NCBI GenBank assembly: GCA_031255425.1
Contig: JAIRSN010000121.1
Span: 1 to 13,688 of the forward strand
DNA: 13,688 nucleotides
Source of the DNA: Dysgonamonadaceae bacterium
Lineage (GTDB): Bacteria > Bacteroidota > Bacteroidia > Bacteroidales > Azobacteroidaceae
Direction: 5' to 3'
The first letter of the stretch is position 1, and the number at the start of each line of letters is the position of its first letter. The position numbers and the translations under genes are program-made. Below, one piece after another: positions 1,961 through 6,900 of the stretch. The notes beneath the pieces were generated by a model that was given only the letters and a program-made list of their open reading frames with translations, was not told the origin of the DNA and made no database searches.

Positions 1961-1977
1961 AAATCCTTGTCGCTGAA
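1961..1977 (+). repeat. Direct repeat flanking the ATPase-nuclease cassette (left copy)
   Basis: AAATCCTTGTCGCTGAA, identical over 17 bases to 3818-3834. It begins 18 bases beyond the nuclease stop codon and sits upstream of the lolD promoter. Bases around it show looser similarity between the copies (CAGT-GA blocks before, GAA-AAA-GAA blocks after), so an older repeat of perhaps 40-50 bases is possible. It could be a target-site duplication, an att-like site, or a dispersed repeat used for recombination. Confidence 0.8.
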
Positions 1978-1994: not shown

Positions 1995-2498
1995 TTATTT
2001 TACGGGAACCGTCGCACAAATGCTTAACCGAAAACCTGTTTCGGATTTGAATTTTTCCATTTGTTCTTTATGCCCAAAGTGGTAATCAGGATGTTTTCTA
2101 TTTGCGAGATAAGCCGCTTTTTTTGAAAGGCAAGAGAGATTATAACGATCCTGAAAACGCAGAATAGTCGTTTTTAACTGGTTGATTCCACCGGTTATCC
2201 AGTCTGCTCTAACTTCTTTCAGCTCGACAAAATAAAAGTCGTATTTGTTTCCCGGCCGCAAACAAATCAGCAGAGCGTCGCATTGCGATTCTGCATTTCC
2301 GTCGGGTCTTAAACATTTAATATTGTTGTCAAGCGGAACAAAATAAACGGAGAGACTGCTCGCATTTTCAATTTTGGCAATGCCATCGTCAAAAGCGACA
2401 ATTTTTACAGGTTTGGTTGGCTGGTTTGTGTCATCGAAAATGCCGAAACGGTCTGTCTTCCGCTCAAAACAAGTGGTTGAGAATAAATCAATTTTCAT
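1995..2498 (-). CDS. Putative PD-(D/E)XK-type nuclease partner of the adjacent ATPase
   Basis: A 167-residue protein of no family I can name. Residues 71-96 have the layout of a PD-(D/E)XK nuclease core: Asp74 in a hydrophobic strand (CDALLICL), then, after 17 intervening residues, E92-L-K94 in the strand YFVELKEV, then a helix starting NQL (Gln107), which fits the conserved glutamine often seen after the ExK strand. This fold includes restriction endonucleases and many anti-phage effectors; nuclease activity here is inference. No signal peptide or membrane segment is seen. The ATG at 2498 was chosen because it overlaps the ATPase stop by 11 bases (ATGAAAATTGA), a sign of translational coupling. 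An upstream in-frame ATG (2549) would add 17 residues lying inside the ATPase gene. Base composition is A+T-rich like its partner. Alternatives considered (TOPRIM, HNH) lack their motifs. Confidence 0.72.
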   Translation of the reverse strand: MKIDLFSTTCFERKTDRFGIFDDTNQPTKPVKIVAFDDGIAKIENASSLSVYFVPLDNNIKCLRPDGNAESQCDALLICLRPGNKYDFYFVELKEVRADWITGGINQLKTTILRFQDRYNLSCLSKKAAYLANRKHPDYHFGHKEQMEKFKSETGFRLSICATVPVK

Positions 2499-3729
2499 TT
2501 TCTTCTTCGATTTCCTGCAATTGAGCAAACAGATGATTGGTATCGGCAAGCATATTGTTCAGGTAATTATTATCTGACGGAATTAAATCATTGTATTTGG
2601 GCAGCGCTTTAATTGTTCCCTCTTTTTCTTCTATTTCGTAAATCGAAACATCAGAAGCATTTACACAGGAATCAAAAGCAATTATCTCAGAAATAGAAGT
2701 GGATAAAGTTTCTTTATTTGCCGGCGATAAATTGTCCAAAACTTGTTTTGCCTTTATTGCAATAGTCAGGTAATTAATTAAATAGGGGCTGTGTGTAGTC
2801 AAAATCAACTTATTGTCGCCGTTCATATTGTTGAATCTCAACAAACTTTGCAACATTTTCCATTGAGAAACCGGATACAGGTTTTGTTCGGGTTCTTCTA
2901 CAATGTTGATAAAAGCCGTCTTGTTAAAAGCAGAGGCAAGTTCGGAAATTGCCTGCCGTTTTTGGCTGTCGGTTAAATGTTCATTGTCCCAAATAGTGCG
3001 CAATCCTCTTTGAAACTTAATGGTTTCTTCACTGCTCATCGTGGCCTTTTTACCGCTCTGTTTTTTTACGGACTTTGCCAAAAATTCAGAGACCAGATAC
3101 AGCGGCACAAACGACTGAAAACCGCTTGAAGCAACGCGCAATTTAATTCTGAAATCGTTACTTTTCAAATACAATTCGTCTGAACGCTTATCGTAGCGGA
3201 TTTCGGTATCGTTGACAGGCAAAGAGACCGCATTTCCATTCATATCCTGCATTGCATTGTAGTATTCCGTGCTAAATTCCTGCAATGCTTCCGAAGAAAG
3301 TTTCAGTTCTTCCGCTCCTTTTATGTAGGTCAGCAAATTGCGTTCGGCAGGCACATACATTATTTTGGGCAAAGAATACTTATCGTCCTGTATTTCCGTA
3401 ACAGATAATTCATTGTTTCTGTATGAAATCGAAAATTTATTTCCTGTATAATCAATTTCCGAATTGTCGTTAAGATAATCTTCCAAACGATGATAGGGTA
3501 AATAATAGGATTCTAATCTGTTTTTCACCTCAAACCAATCTTTTTCAAAATCGCCTCGCACTAACGATTTTTCGATTTTAGTAAAAACTGAAATAAGTTT
3601 GGCTACCGTACTTTTGCCGGCGCCCTGATTGCCGGTAAACACAGTCACTTTGTTTACATCAAGCCACCCGTCATTATTTTGAAAACCGGTTTTTATGGGA
3701 CCAAAATTTGTGATTTTTATCTTGCTCAT
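2488..3729 (-). CDS. AAA/OLD-like ATPase of a putative defence module
   Basis: A 413-residue P-loop ATPase of the SMC/ABC-like class (AAA_15/AAA_21 type). Motifs in order: an N-terminal strand pattern IKITNFGPIKTG; Walker A GNQGAGKST (33-41); YVPAERN (125-131), a conserved block in this group; an ABC-like signature ASSGFQS (200-206); Walker B with catalytic acidic residues FINIVEEPEQNLYP (273-286); and switch histidine TTHSPYL (His313). No C-terminal TOPRIM domain is present, so it is not a full OLD nuclease. Such ATPases serve as sensors or regulators in two-gene anti-phage systems, partnered by a nuclease or toxin. Here the overlapping downstream gene has a PD-(D/E)XK signature. The gene is A+T-rich relative to its neighbours (19 of 60 bases are G or C at 2641-2700) and lies between 17-bp direct repeats, suggesting horizontal acquisition. 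I cannot assign a named system. Confidence 0.85.
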   Translation of the reverse strand: MSKIKITNFGPIKTGFQNNDGWLDVNKVTVFTGNQGAGKSTVAKLISVFTKIEKSLVRGDFEKDWFEVKNRLESYYLPYHRLEDYLNDNSEIDYTGNKFSISYRNNELSVTEIQDDKYSLPKIMYVPAERNLLTYIKGAEELKLSSEALQEFSTEYYNAMQDMNGNAVSLPVNDTEIRYDKRSDELYLKSNDFRIKLRVASSGFQSFVPLYLVSEFLAKSVKKQSGKKATMSSEETIKFQRGLRTIWDNEHLTDSQKRQAISELASAFNKTAFINIVEEPEQNLYPVSQWKMLQSLLRFNNMNGDNKLILTTHSPYLINYLTIAIKAKQVLDNLSPANKETLSTSISEIIAFDSCVNASDVSIYEIEEKEGTIKALPKYNDLIPSDNNYLNNMLADTNHLFAQLQEIEEENEN

Positions 3730-3748
3730 ACCGTGGATATTTTAGGTA

Positions 3749-3783
3749 GCAAATGTACTAATTTTTCCTGAAATACCAGCAAA
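3749..3783 (-). promoter_or_regulatory. Promoter for the ATPase-nuclease cassette
   Basis: On the minus strand TACATTTG (3757-3750) matches TAnnTTTG exactly and is preceded by TTTG (3783-3780) with a gap of 22 bases, slightly longer than usual. The ATPase start codon (3729) follows about 20 bases downstream. It lies inside the direct repeats, so the cassette carries its own promoter. Confidence 0.55.
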
Positions 3784-3817
3784 AACAAAAACCACTCTCC
3801 CAGTGATTGTGTCGTCC

Positions 3818-3834
3818 AAATCCTTGTCGCTGAA
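3818..3834 (+). repeat. Direct repeat flanking the ATPase-nuclease cassette (right copy)
   Basis: AAATCCTTGTCGCTGAA, a perfect 17-base match to 1961-1977 in the same orientation. It lies just upstream of the cassette promoter and about 70 bases before the -7 box of the divergent DUF2723 gene. The interval from copy to copy (1961-3834) contains exactly the two cassette genes and their promoter. Confidence 0.8.
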
Positions 3835-3902
3835 CAAATAGAAATGCGATTAAAGCGCCTGAGTTTTTTCCAAAGAAACAGCGGAGAAAATCAAACTTTT
3901 AC

Positions 3903-3910
3903 TATCTTTG
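3903..3910 (+). promoter_or_regulatory. -7 box of the DUF2723 operon promoter
   Basis: TATCTTTG matches the Bacteroidota TAnnTTTG box, 40 bases before the ATG at 3950. No clear TTTG is seen 19-22 bases upstream, so the assignment rests on the -7 box and its position. Confidence 0.5.
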
Positions 3911-3949
3911 CAGCCAAAATAAATTCTTAAGTAATAATCATTGAACGTT

Positions 3950-6900
3950 ATGGGAATTAAAAAATATTATTTGACAAACAACCTGCTGGGGTGGGTAGTG
4001 TTTGCAATCGCGGCGGTAGTGTATCTGATGACGATCGAACCGACTGCCAGCTTTTGGGATTGCGGTGAATTTATTTCATCGGCGTACAAATTGGAAGTAG
4101 GACATCCGCCCGGCGCCCCGGTGTTTATGCTTATGGGAAACCTGTTTTCCCATTTGGCAACCGAAGCCTCGCAGGTGTCGTTGATGTTGAATGCCCTGTC
4201 TGCCATATTCAGCGCGTTGACCATCCTGTTCCTTTTCTGGACCATCACGCACCTTGCCAGGCGAATCGTGATGCAGGACACGGCACAGGAAATGACCATC
4301 GCACAATTCATTACCATACTGGGCGCAGGGACAGTCGGCGCCCTGGCCTACACCTTCTCCGATACGTTCTGGTTTTCGGCGGTAGAAGGCGAAGTGTACG
4401 CCTTCTCCTCCCTGATGACCGCCGTCGTCTTCTGGCTTATCCTGAAATGGGAAGATGTTGCCGACGAACCCCATTCCAATCGCTGGCTCGTCCTGATCGC
4501 TTACCTGATGGGGATTTCCATTGCGATCCACTTGCTGAACCTGCTCTGTATTCCCGCCATCGTACTGGTATATTATTTCCGGAAAAACCCCAACCCGACA
4601 GGGAAAGGCGCCGCCGCCGCCCTGCTGGTTTCCTTCGGAATCCTGGTTGCCATCCTCTACGGACTGGTACAGGGACTGATGGAGGTGAGCGGATGGTTTG
4701 AACTCCTGTTTGTCAACGTCTTCCACCTGCCCTACAATTCGGGAGTGGTGTTTTACCTGATCCTTATCTTCGGCGTCCTGGCATGGGCAATCAAAGAGTC
4801 GATGAGCGCCGGCGGACAACTGAAACGGACGAAAATATCCTTCATCCTCGCCATTACGTTGCTGGGGATTCCGTTTATAGGCAACGGATTGTGGCTGGGG
4901 ATACTGATTCTTACGGCGCTGGTCATCTACCTGTTCTCGTCTAAGAAAATCAACCCGGCGGCATTGAACACCATCTTATTAGGACTGCTCGTCATCACCA
5001 TCGGGTATTCTTCCTATGCCCTGATTATGATCCGTTCGGCGGCGAATACGCCGATGGATCAAAATTCACCGGAAGACATTTTCACCCTAAGAACCTACCT
5101 GAGCCGGGAACAATACGGAGAAACGCCGCTGTTCTACGGACAAACGTTCGTTTCGGAAGTGAAATACGAGCGAAAAGGCGAAATGCTTGAGGCGGTGACG
5201 AAAGACGAAGGACCGGTCTGGTCGCAAATCCCCAAAAGAGATCCCTCGGAAAGGGACCGGTACTACGAATCGAGCCGCAAAAAACGATACATCTATGTGG
5301 ATGAACTGAATACGCTGTTTCCGCGCATGTACAGTTCGGACGCCCAACATATTCAAGGCTATAAGGAATGGTCCGGCTTCAAAGGGAAGCGCGTGCGGGT
5401 GGCGACGCCCCAGGGCAACAAGTGGGTGGTACGGCCGACGTTCGGCGAAAACCTGCGCTATTTCTTTGAATACCAAGTCAACTTTATGTATTGGCGATAC
5501 TTTATGTGGAACTTTTCGGGCCGGCAGAACGACATTCAGGGCAACGGGGGAATCTCCAACGGCAACTGGATCACCGGCATCAAGTTTATCGATCAGTTCC
5601 GCGTCGGGCCGCAGGACAACCTGCCCGATTTTATTGCCCAAAACAAAGGACACAATAAATACTATATGTTGCCGCTATTGCTCGGAATACTCGGCATCTT
5701 CTTCCAGATTTCTTCAGGAAAAAAGGGGAAAGAGCAGTTCTGGGTCACCTTCCTGCTGTTCTTTATGACCGGACTGGCGATTGTGCTGTATTTGAACCAG
5801 CCGCCTTTCCAGCCGCGGGAACGGGATTATGCCTACGCCGGGTCGTTCTACGCTTTCTGCATCTGGATTGGTCTCGGCACGGCGAAAGTCATCGGGGAAC
5901 TGAACAAGTACATCCGGAAACGGGAAACGGCGGTCGCCGCGCTGGGGACGGCGCTTTGCCTGCTGGTGCCCATTCAAATGGTGTCGCAAACCTGGGACGA
6001 CCACGACCGTTCCGGCAGATACGTCACGCGCGACTTCGGGATGAATTACCTGTCGACCTGCGAACCCAACGCGATTATTTTCACCAACGGCGATAACGAC
6101 ACCTTCCCGCTCTGGTATGCGCAGGAAGTGGAGGGATACCGCACGGACGTCCGCGTGTGCAACCTGAGCTACCTGCAAACCGACTGGTACATCGACCAGA
6201 TGAAGCGGCAGGCGTACGAGTCCGACCCGCTTCCGATTGAATGGAAAAAATACGAATATGTACAGGGAAATCACGACGTGGCGTATGTGATTGACGAATA
6301 CGATGAGCCGTGGACGGTGGAACGGGTCTTGAACCGCATCAAATCGGATGACGCAAGAGACAAGCGGATCGCCGGATACGACTTTGAACTGGACAATATT
6401 CCGACCACCAAAATAACGATTCCCGTGGATGCCGGCGCCGTCGTTGCGGCGGGGTTGGTGGAGCCCGGAGAAGCCGGCCGGATTCCCCCGTATATGCTTA
6501 TCGACCTGGGGGAAAAGCCCAACGAACGGCGGGGGACGACCTCTCCGCAGAAGAAATACCTCTCGAAGCACGAGTTGATGATTCTCGAAATGCTGAAGAA
6601 CAATTCCGACTGGTCGCGCCCCATTTACTACGCCCTGACGGTCGACTCGGAGCAATACCTGAGGCTGGATTCCTACCTGCGCCAGGACGGTATCGCCTAC
6701 CGCATTGTCCCCTTCGAATCCGCTAAGTACCAGAACATCAACCCGGATATTTTATACGACAACCTGATGAATAAATACCGCTGGGGAAACCTCCGGCAAC
6801 CGGGGCTGTACCTCGACGAAAACAGTATGCGGATGACAAAAACCTTCCGCATCCTCTTCGGGCAACTGGCGCAGACGCTGGCGGATGAAAAAGACTTCGA

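Follow-up and report, generated by a model that had tools for sequence, protein, structure and literature searches.

A minus-strand gene pair and its family assignment

The stretch analysed here (the window) covers positions 1 to 13,688 of contig JAIRSN010000121.1 of a Dysgonamonadaceae bacterium (assembly GCA_031255425.1), which is contig C152 of a draft genome of 2.01 Mb in 274 contigs, 77 percent complete. It contains two overlapping genes, predicted to encode an ABC-type ATPase and a small nuclease, which probably act together against phage as a two-gene member of PDC-M29, a candidate defence family in PADLOC. The pair is arranged as follows:

2488..3729, minus strand (read 3729..2488): ATPase gene, 413 amino acids (aa); AAA_15/AAA_21, PDC-M29A family; proposed sensor and regulator
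1995..2498, minus strand (ATG at 2498, stop at 1995): putative nuclease gene, 167 aa; PD-(D/E)XK-type motif, PDC-M29B family; proposed effector
2488..2498, minus strand: overlap of the ATPase stop and the nuclease start, 11 bases

The overlap and the 167-residue second protein had been described in a first-pass annotation of the window and were confirmed, and an overlap of this kind may point to translational coupling of the two genes. In the open reading frame (ORF) listing of the window the nuclease has a longer alternative start, TTG at 2549; the position of the ATG used here is shared by 23 of 26 aligned rows, the other three (P0019, P0021 and P0024) being given longer starts by their sources.

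All of the ATPase motifs named in the first-pass annotation were found at the same residues when re-read from the translation: the Walker A motif at residues 33-41 (GNQGAGKST), the signature at 200-206 (ASSGFQS), the Walker B region at 273-286 (FINIVEEPEQNLYP) and the H-loop histidine at H313. Across an alignment of 18 ATPases there was no variation at K39, S40, E278, E279, Q282, N283 and H313, and S201 and S202 of the signature were almost invariant; because these key residues are invariant, the motifs stand above chance. AAA_15 and AAA_21 were the Pfam families above cut-off, whilst sequence comparison with the PDB gave weak matches only, the best being FtsE (E 0.004). As such, the protein can be read from its motifs as an ABC-type ATPase, and we infer that it belongs to the OLD-type branch. 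Of 7999 proteins scored in a homologue search, at least 5311 fell at E ≤ 0.001; the best 120 were listed, and these were used for no result given here.

For the 167-aa protein, the layout D74...E92-x-K94...Q107 had been proposed to be that of a PD-(D/E)XK nuclease. The layout is present, the motif residues being D57, D74, E92-L93-K94 and Q107, and its interpretation gained support from homologues. Among close rows (the window and 25 of 42 other homologues), D74, E92, K94 and Q107 were invariant in 26 of 26. In a diverse set of 28 ORFs, E92 and K94 were present in all 28 and Q107 in 26, with position 74 occupied by D in 25 and by E in 3; in a further alignment of 53 sequences (the window, 50 other listed homologue proteins and two locus ORFs), the D, E and K were found in 53 of 53 and the Q in 52 of 53. 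The diverse set represents 28 of 39 nuclease ORFs, from which we left out close kin (L002, L005, L016, L017, L033, L036 and L038), fragments or uncertain starts (L019, L021 and L039) and the L064 ORF, a member of a different pair; of those dropped, L019, L021 and L064 possess CD ... E-x-K, and the listed piece of L039 does not include that region. Because the proposed catalytic positions are conserved across both close and diverse sets, the motif is above chance. The structure predicted for the nuclease, a check suggested in the first-pass annotation, contains strands and a helix in the order expected for PD-(D/E)XK, whose core fold is alpha-beta-beta-beta-alpha-beta, in a model of moderate confidence, and its VIA fold matches include FokI, BamHI, McrC and PaqCI, as well as repair nucleases such as EndoMS. 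By sequence, the protein had no Pfam match at E ≤ 1 and no PDB match at E ≤ 10. We conclude that it is probably a PD-(D/E)XK-type nuclease with D74, E92, K94 and Q107 as candidate catalytic residues.

Comparison with PADLOC, likewise suggested in the first-pass annotation, matched both proteins over their full lengths to the two halves of PDC-M29. The ATPase aligned to PDC-M29A with E 1.1e-169 and 563 bits (residues 1-410 on 1-409 of 410) and the small protein to PDC-M29B with E 4.8e-38 and 129 bits (residues 1-166 on 1-163 of 164); the genes are adjacent, with the 11-base overlap, and no difference was found between their order and adjacency and those in relatives. Among named records, the nearest relatives of the pair come from Dysgonamonadaceae and other Bacteroidales or Bacteroidia. 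PDC-M29 is an already catalogued candidate phage-defence family that is itself a prediction: PADLOC draws its candidates from a guilt-by-embedding search, and the majority of those in the core set that the paper covers still await validation (PMC12988326). No paper in the literature collection searched mentions PDC-M29 by name, and NCBIfam gave nothing above its cut-offs for either protein. What we add to the catalogue entry is the probable catalytic residues of M29B, the strict pairing of the two genes, a small controlled test of their neighbours and a cassette bracketed by repeats.

Relation to known ATPase-nuclease systems

The first-pass annotation had placed the pairing outside known systems, a view that does not hold: in addition to the PADLOC entry, the same architecture appears in a survey of BREX (PMC12839542) and, experimentally, in WonAB from the WASA-1 prophage of Vibrio cholerae (PMC12137116). 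In the latter report, WonAB consists of an OLD-type ABC ATPase and a PD-(D/E)xK nuclease; protection requires both genes and the tested active-site residues, and the toxicity of WonB depends on WonA, from which the authors exclude simple sequestration. Activation halts translation and leaves genomic DNA intact, and tRNA or rRNA is the target that the authors suggest. A wider family of ABC-ATPase sensors with nuclease effectors is also described there, with an operon of an OLD-ABC ATPase and a novel restriction endonuclease (REase), and PD-T4-4, as relatives (PMC12137116). The window's pair resembles WonAB in architecture, as a two-gene operon that joins a predicted OLD-type ABC ATPase to a probable PD-(D/E)XK protein. 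The mutated WonA positions K34, E300 and H333 compare with K39, E279 and H313 in the window, thus the ATPase inserts differ in length; the catalytic lysine is residue 71 in WonB as opposed to 94 here (PMC12137116).

Because this architecture is common to both, the pair most likely has a mode of action like that of WonAB, and by the same analogy we infer complex formation, a need for both genes and abortive infection. The ATPase would form an ABC-type dimer that holds the nuclease and would respond to some phage-made signal, upon which an ATP-driven change would free or activate the PD-(D/E)XK nuclease; once active, this would cut nucleic acid (tRNA, rRNA or DNA), with the infection being aborted as a result. 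The probable catalytic residues, which can be mutated, tie a PADLOC candidate to a mechanism class with an experimental example, and the pair, being compact, lends itself to finding out what ATPases of this kind sense.

Other systems with related ATPases were compared in the same manner. The BREX survey reports OLD-ABC ATPases paired with HNH, PD-(D/E)XK and PIN nucleases (PMC12839542), and its pairs of OLD-ABC ATPase and PD-(D/E)XK REase, from BREX and related loci, have the pairing principle in common with the window's pair, as likened by their description; a Pfam scan, the one search made for them, recognized no BREX gene among the window's neighbours. PD-T4-4 combines a PF13175 ATPase with a PD(D/E)XK domain (PMC10952713). 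Its ATPase model scored 36.7 bits on the window's ATPase versus 563 for PDC-M29A, and we rejected it since the second protein had no PD-T4-4_B match at E ≤ 1 (PADLOC model PDLC04034); PD-T4-4_B was also found in none of 148 phylum genomes, a scan in which the controls were silent as well. The first-pass annotation had rightly set PARIS, Septu and Gabija aside, the second-protein, TOPRIM and helicase tests all being negative. PARIS is similar in its ATPase sensor and separate nuclease gene (AriA model, 52.5 bits on the ATPase), its AriB cutting tRNAs (PMC12409363); the window's second protein has no AriB or TOPRIM match at E ≤ 1 (PADLOC, Pfam). Septu and Gabija have related ATPases, PtuA scoring 40 bits and GajA 25 bits on that of the window; Septu was rejected because no PtuB or HNH match was obtained at E ≤ 1 (PADLOC, Pfam), and Gabija because no TOPRIM appears in the Pfam matches of the 413-aa ATPase and no helicase among the eight window neighbours scanned.

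Co-occurrence and probable acquisition of the pair

Using the M29A model at E ≤ 1e-40, we identified 22 ATPase genes in 19 of 395 genomes of the phylum, and for 20 of the 22 an M29B match lay directly downstream. The partner of one further ATPase (L063) is cut by the contig end, with SQCE and FLELK still visible, and one ATPase (L062, on G284:C8) has no nuclease partner following it. The M29B model at E ≤ 0.001 returned 32 rows in 29 genomes of the phylum sample, counted as 30 ORFs, and an ATPase was directly upstream of 29 of these. Three of the 29 ATPases are broken, that of G024 by an in-frame stop, whereas those of G197 and G249 survive as fragments; the sole nuclease ORF without an upstream ATPase, L030, has internal stops. 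At the named loci from a GTDB scan the ATPase was upstream in 10 of 10, the nuclease of L039 being split between frames. Within the window's own family, 10 ATPase genes were present in 9 of 45 genomes; eight are followed by a complete partner gene (the window, L105-L110 and L112), and the remaining two are L063 and L111, the latter an ATPase itself cut by the contig end. The ten named loci and the 45-genome sample overlap (five locus pairs have equal ATPase scores), so the two sets were not summed. Junction overlaps in 46 rows, of which a few loci give more than one, were 4 bases in 20 and 10 or 11 bases in 15. The two genes are thus a near-obligatory unit.

A second, divergent ATPase-nuclease pair, with E for D at motif II, is found in the window's own genome on contig C210 (L063, 1501-3040). 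L112 is a complete pair of the L063 type, with a 191-aa partner that carries QCE and EIK and is kin by motif.

A small nuclease beside a larger regulator, the tight overlap and the cassette-like features presented below would also suit a toxin-antitoxin pair, in which the nuclease is a toxin neutralized by the ATPase and serves addiction or a stress response, not phage sensing; the Pfam label of AAA_21, 'putative AbiEii toxin, Type IV TA system', favours the same reading. We regard it as unlikely given that the ATPase gene comes first, that the ABC catalytic residues are conserved and would be superfluous for simple sequestration, and that the L062 ATPase occurs without a nuclease. For WonAB, moreover, the authors exclude simple sequestration, as toxicity needs the ATPase (PMC12137116).

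With regard to the origin of the pair, its GC content is 38.3 percent compared with 52.0 in the remainder of the window, and it is bracketed by a direct repeat:

1961..1977, plus strand: direct repeat copy 1, AAATCCTTGTCGCTGAA, 17 nt past the nuclease stop
3818..3834, plus strand: direct repeat copy 2, identical to copy 1, 88 nt ahead of the ATPase start

The copies are perfect over 17 nt, 79 percent identical over 38 nt and spaced by 1857 nt. The draft genome contains no further copy of the 16-nt core at ≤ 1 mismatch, and 3 of the 38 genomes from the genus, the window's own among them, contain the 17-nt repeat at ≤ 1 mismatch. When flanking repeats were tested in 37 rows (the window's pair being L001, with two rows each for G324 and G343), perfect repeats of ≥ 17 nt were present in two, the window and G022; three rows (L016, L023 and L028) have repeats of 12-14 nt and the others ≤ 11 nt; repeats as long as that also arose in at least 4 of 200 shuffles. 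In G022 a perfect 33-nt direct repeat, unlike the window's in sequence, brackets the pair (L010, 441-473 and 2311-2343; spacing 1870 nt). A near-identical copy of it occurs once in G112, after the nuclease and ahead of apparently the same downstream gene, and 4 more genomes from that genus gave no copy; origins from the target and from the cassette are therefore indistinguishable.

The gene to the right of the window's pair is present in 33 of 39 family genomes, and no pair lies within 1.5 kb upstream of it at any of 29 loci besides the window's own (at L086 and L103 the contig ends sooner), these loci being the subset read from the 32 non-own family genomes that have the gene. Synteny does not extend to the left neighbour in 7 relatives inspected, and a clean empty site was not demonstrated. 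The low GC content, the direct-repeat bracket, the patchy presence in the family and an orthologous flank without the pair together support a foreign-composition island that would have been acquired as a unit.

A housekeeping role was also weighed. An SMC/OLD-type ATPase with a nuclease resembles Rad50-Mre11, and the fold matches to repair nucleases would agree with a DNA-repair or recombination pair. Its patchy distribution (9 of 45 family and 19 of 395 phylum genomes), low GC content and defence neighbours make this very improbable; in addition, neither Pfam nor NCBIfam gave a repair family above cut-off, and a check for a named housekeeping pair in the same databases matched none.

Judging by record names, pairs of this kind turn up here and there across the phylum, in termite-gut symbionts as well as in free-living relatives. 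A scan of plasmids gave one record with the pair, from Persicobacter sp. JZB09. Scanning IMG/VR with the nuclease gave 18 pattern stretches and no relative, and phage records queried with a relative's nuclease gave no match. Neither of the two bracketed cassettes, which come from distant genomes, has a recombinase between its repeats. A bolder proposal, which we hold to be possible although doubtful, is that PDC-M29 forms a lineage of its own, spreading as a cassette of just the two genes, with a suicide nuclease that is gated by the ATPase and would cut RNA, as is suspected for WonB.

Genomic neighbourhoods

For nine relatives' pairs we inspected ~9 kb on each side and took the nearest gene of ≥ 100 aa per side, giving 18 genes; a small control of 20 genes came from fixed arbitrary coordinates in 5 of the 9 genomes. 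PADLOC matches at E ≤ 1e-15 were obtained for 7 of the 18 nearest neighbours versus 0 of 20 control genes (Fisher p 0.0025), or by locus for 5 of 9 versus 0 of 10 (Fisher p 0.011). Only the nearest gene per side was counted, the additional large neighbours scanned having been chosen by hand. A PADLOC set scan of 57 neighbours matched 190 families without gene attribution and so enters no count, and a tenth fetched region, L064, whose ATPase has no adjacent nuclease, stands outside the test. The loci with defence neighbours are:

L065 (G112): HEC-01-type protein
L068: DpdF-like helicase
L069: type I restriction enzyme and DarG-like protein
L071: type I restriction enzyme and PDC-S05
L072: Cas13b

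At L066, L067, L070 and L073 the nearest genes had no PADLOC match at E ≤ 1e-15. Several pairs lodge within or next to other defence clusters: that of L069 is embedded in a type I restriction-modification cluster with methyltransferase, specificity and restriction genes, and that of L071 has Qat genes on one side and a type I restriction gene on the other. The idea of the first-pass annotation that the genes form a unit with a probable role in defence, which it had proposed to check by the neighbours of homologues, accordingly finds support in the pairing, the neighbourhoods and the PADLOC match.

Some pairs being in or beside restriction-modification clusters also bears on a restriction-like system, in which the complex would recognize and cut incoming phage or plasmid DNA directly and the cell would survive. 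PD-(D/E)XK is a common restriction-enzyme fold, and FokI, BamHI, McrC and PaqCI are among the fold matches. The pair, however, comes without a specificity or modification gene, and WonAB spares genomic DNA and stops translation (PMC12137116); on balance, direct restriction appears improbable.

Further observations were made around individual pairs. At L065 (11236-12991; G112) a HEC-01-type ATPase and its partner adjoin the PDC-M29 pair, placing two ATPase-effector modules abreast. Within 8168-15559 of L064 (G284), the lone ATPase adjoins type II restriction-modification genes, and ~2.4 kb from it another ATPase (133 bits to PDC-M29A) adjoins a KRCD...GELK protein. At L036 the region upstream of the pair (2446-5801) holds two genes, one for a patatin-like phospholipase and one for a 659-aa protein that is unassigned. 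Ordinary neighbours were seen elsewhere, namely an M20 peptidase and a glycine cleavage T protein at L034 and an FtsX-like permease at L070.

The window's own neighbours are ordinary by Pfam, with a helix-hairpin-helix protein and an ABC transporter ATPase on the left side and, on the right, TMEM260-like, polysaccharide deacetylase, unassigned, cobalamin adenosyltransferase, Tex protein and glutamate dehydrogenase-type genes. At the contig end (13438-13681) lies a tandem array of 5.8 copies of a 42-nt unit, in which several frames are open.
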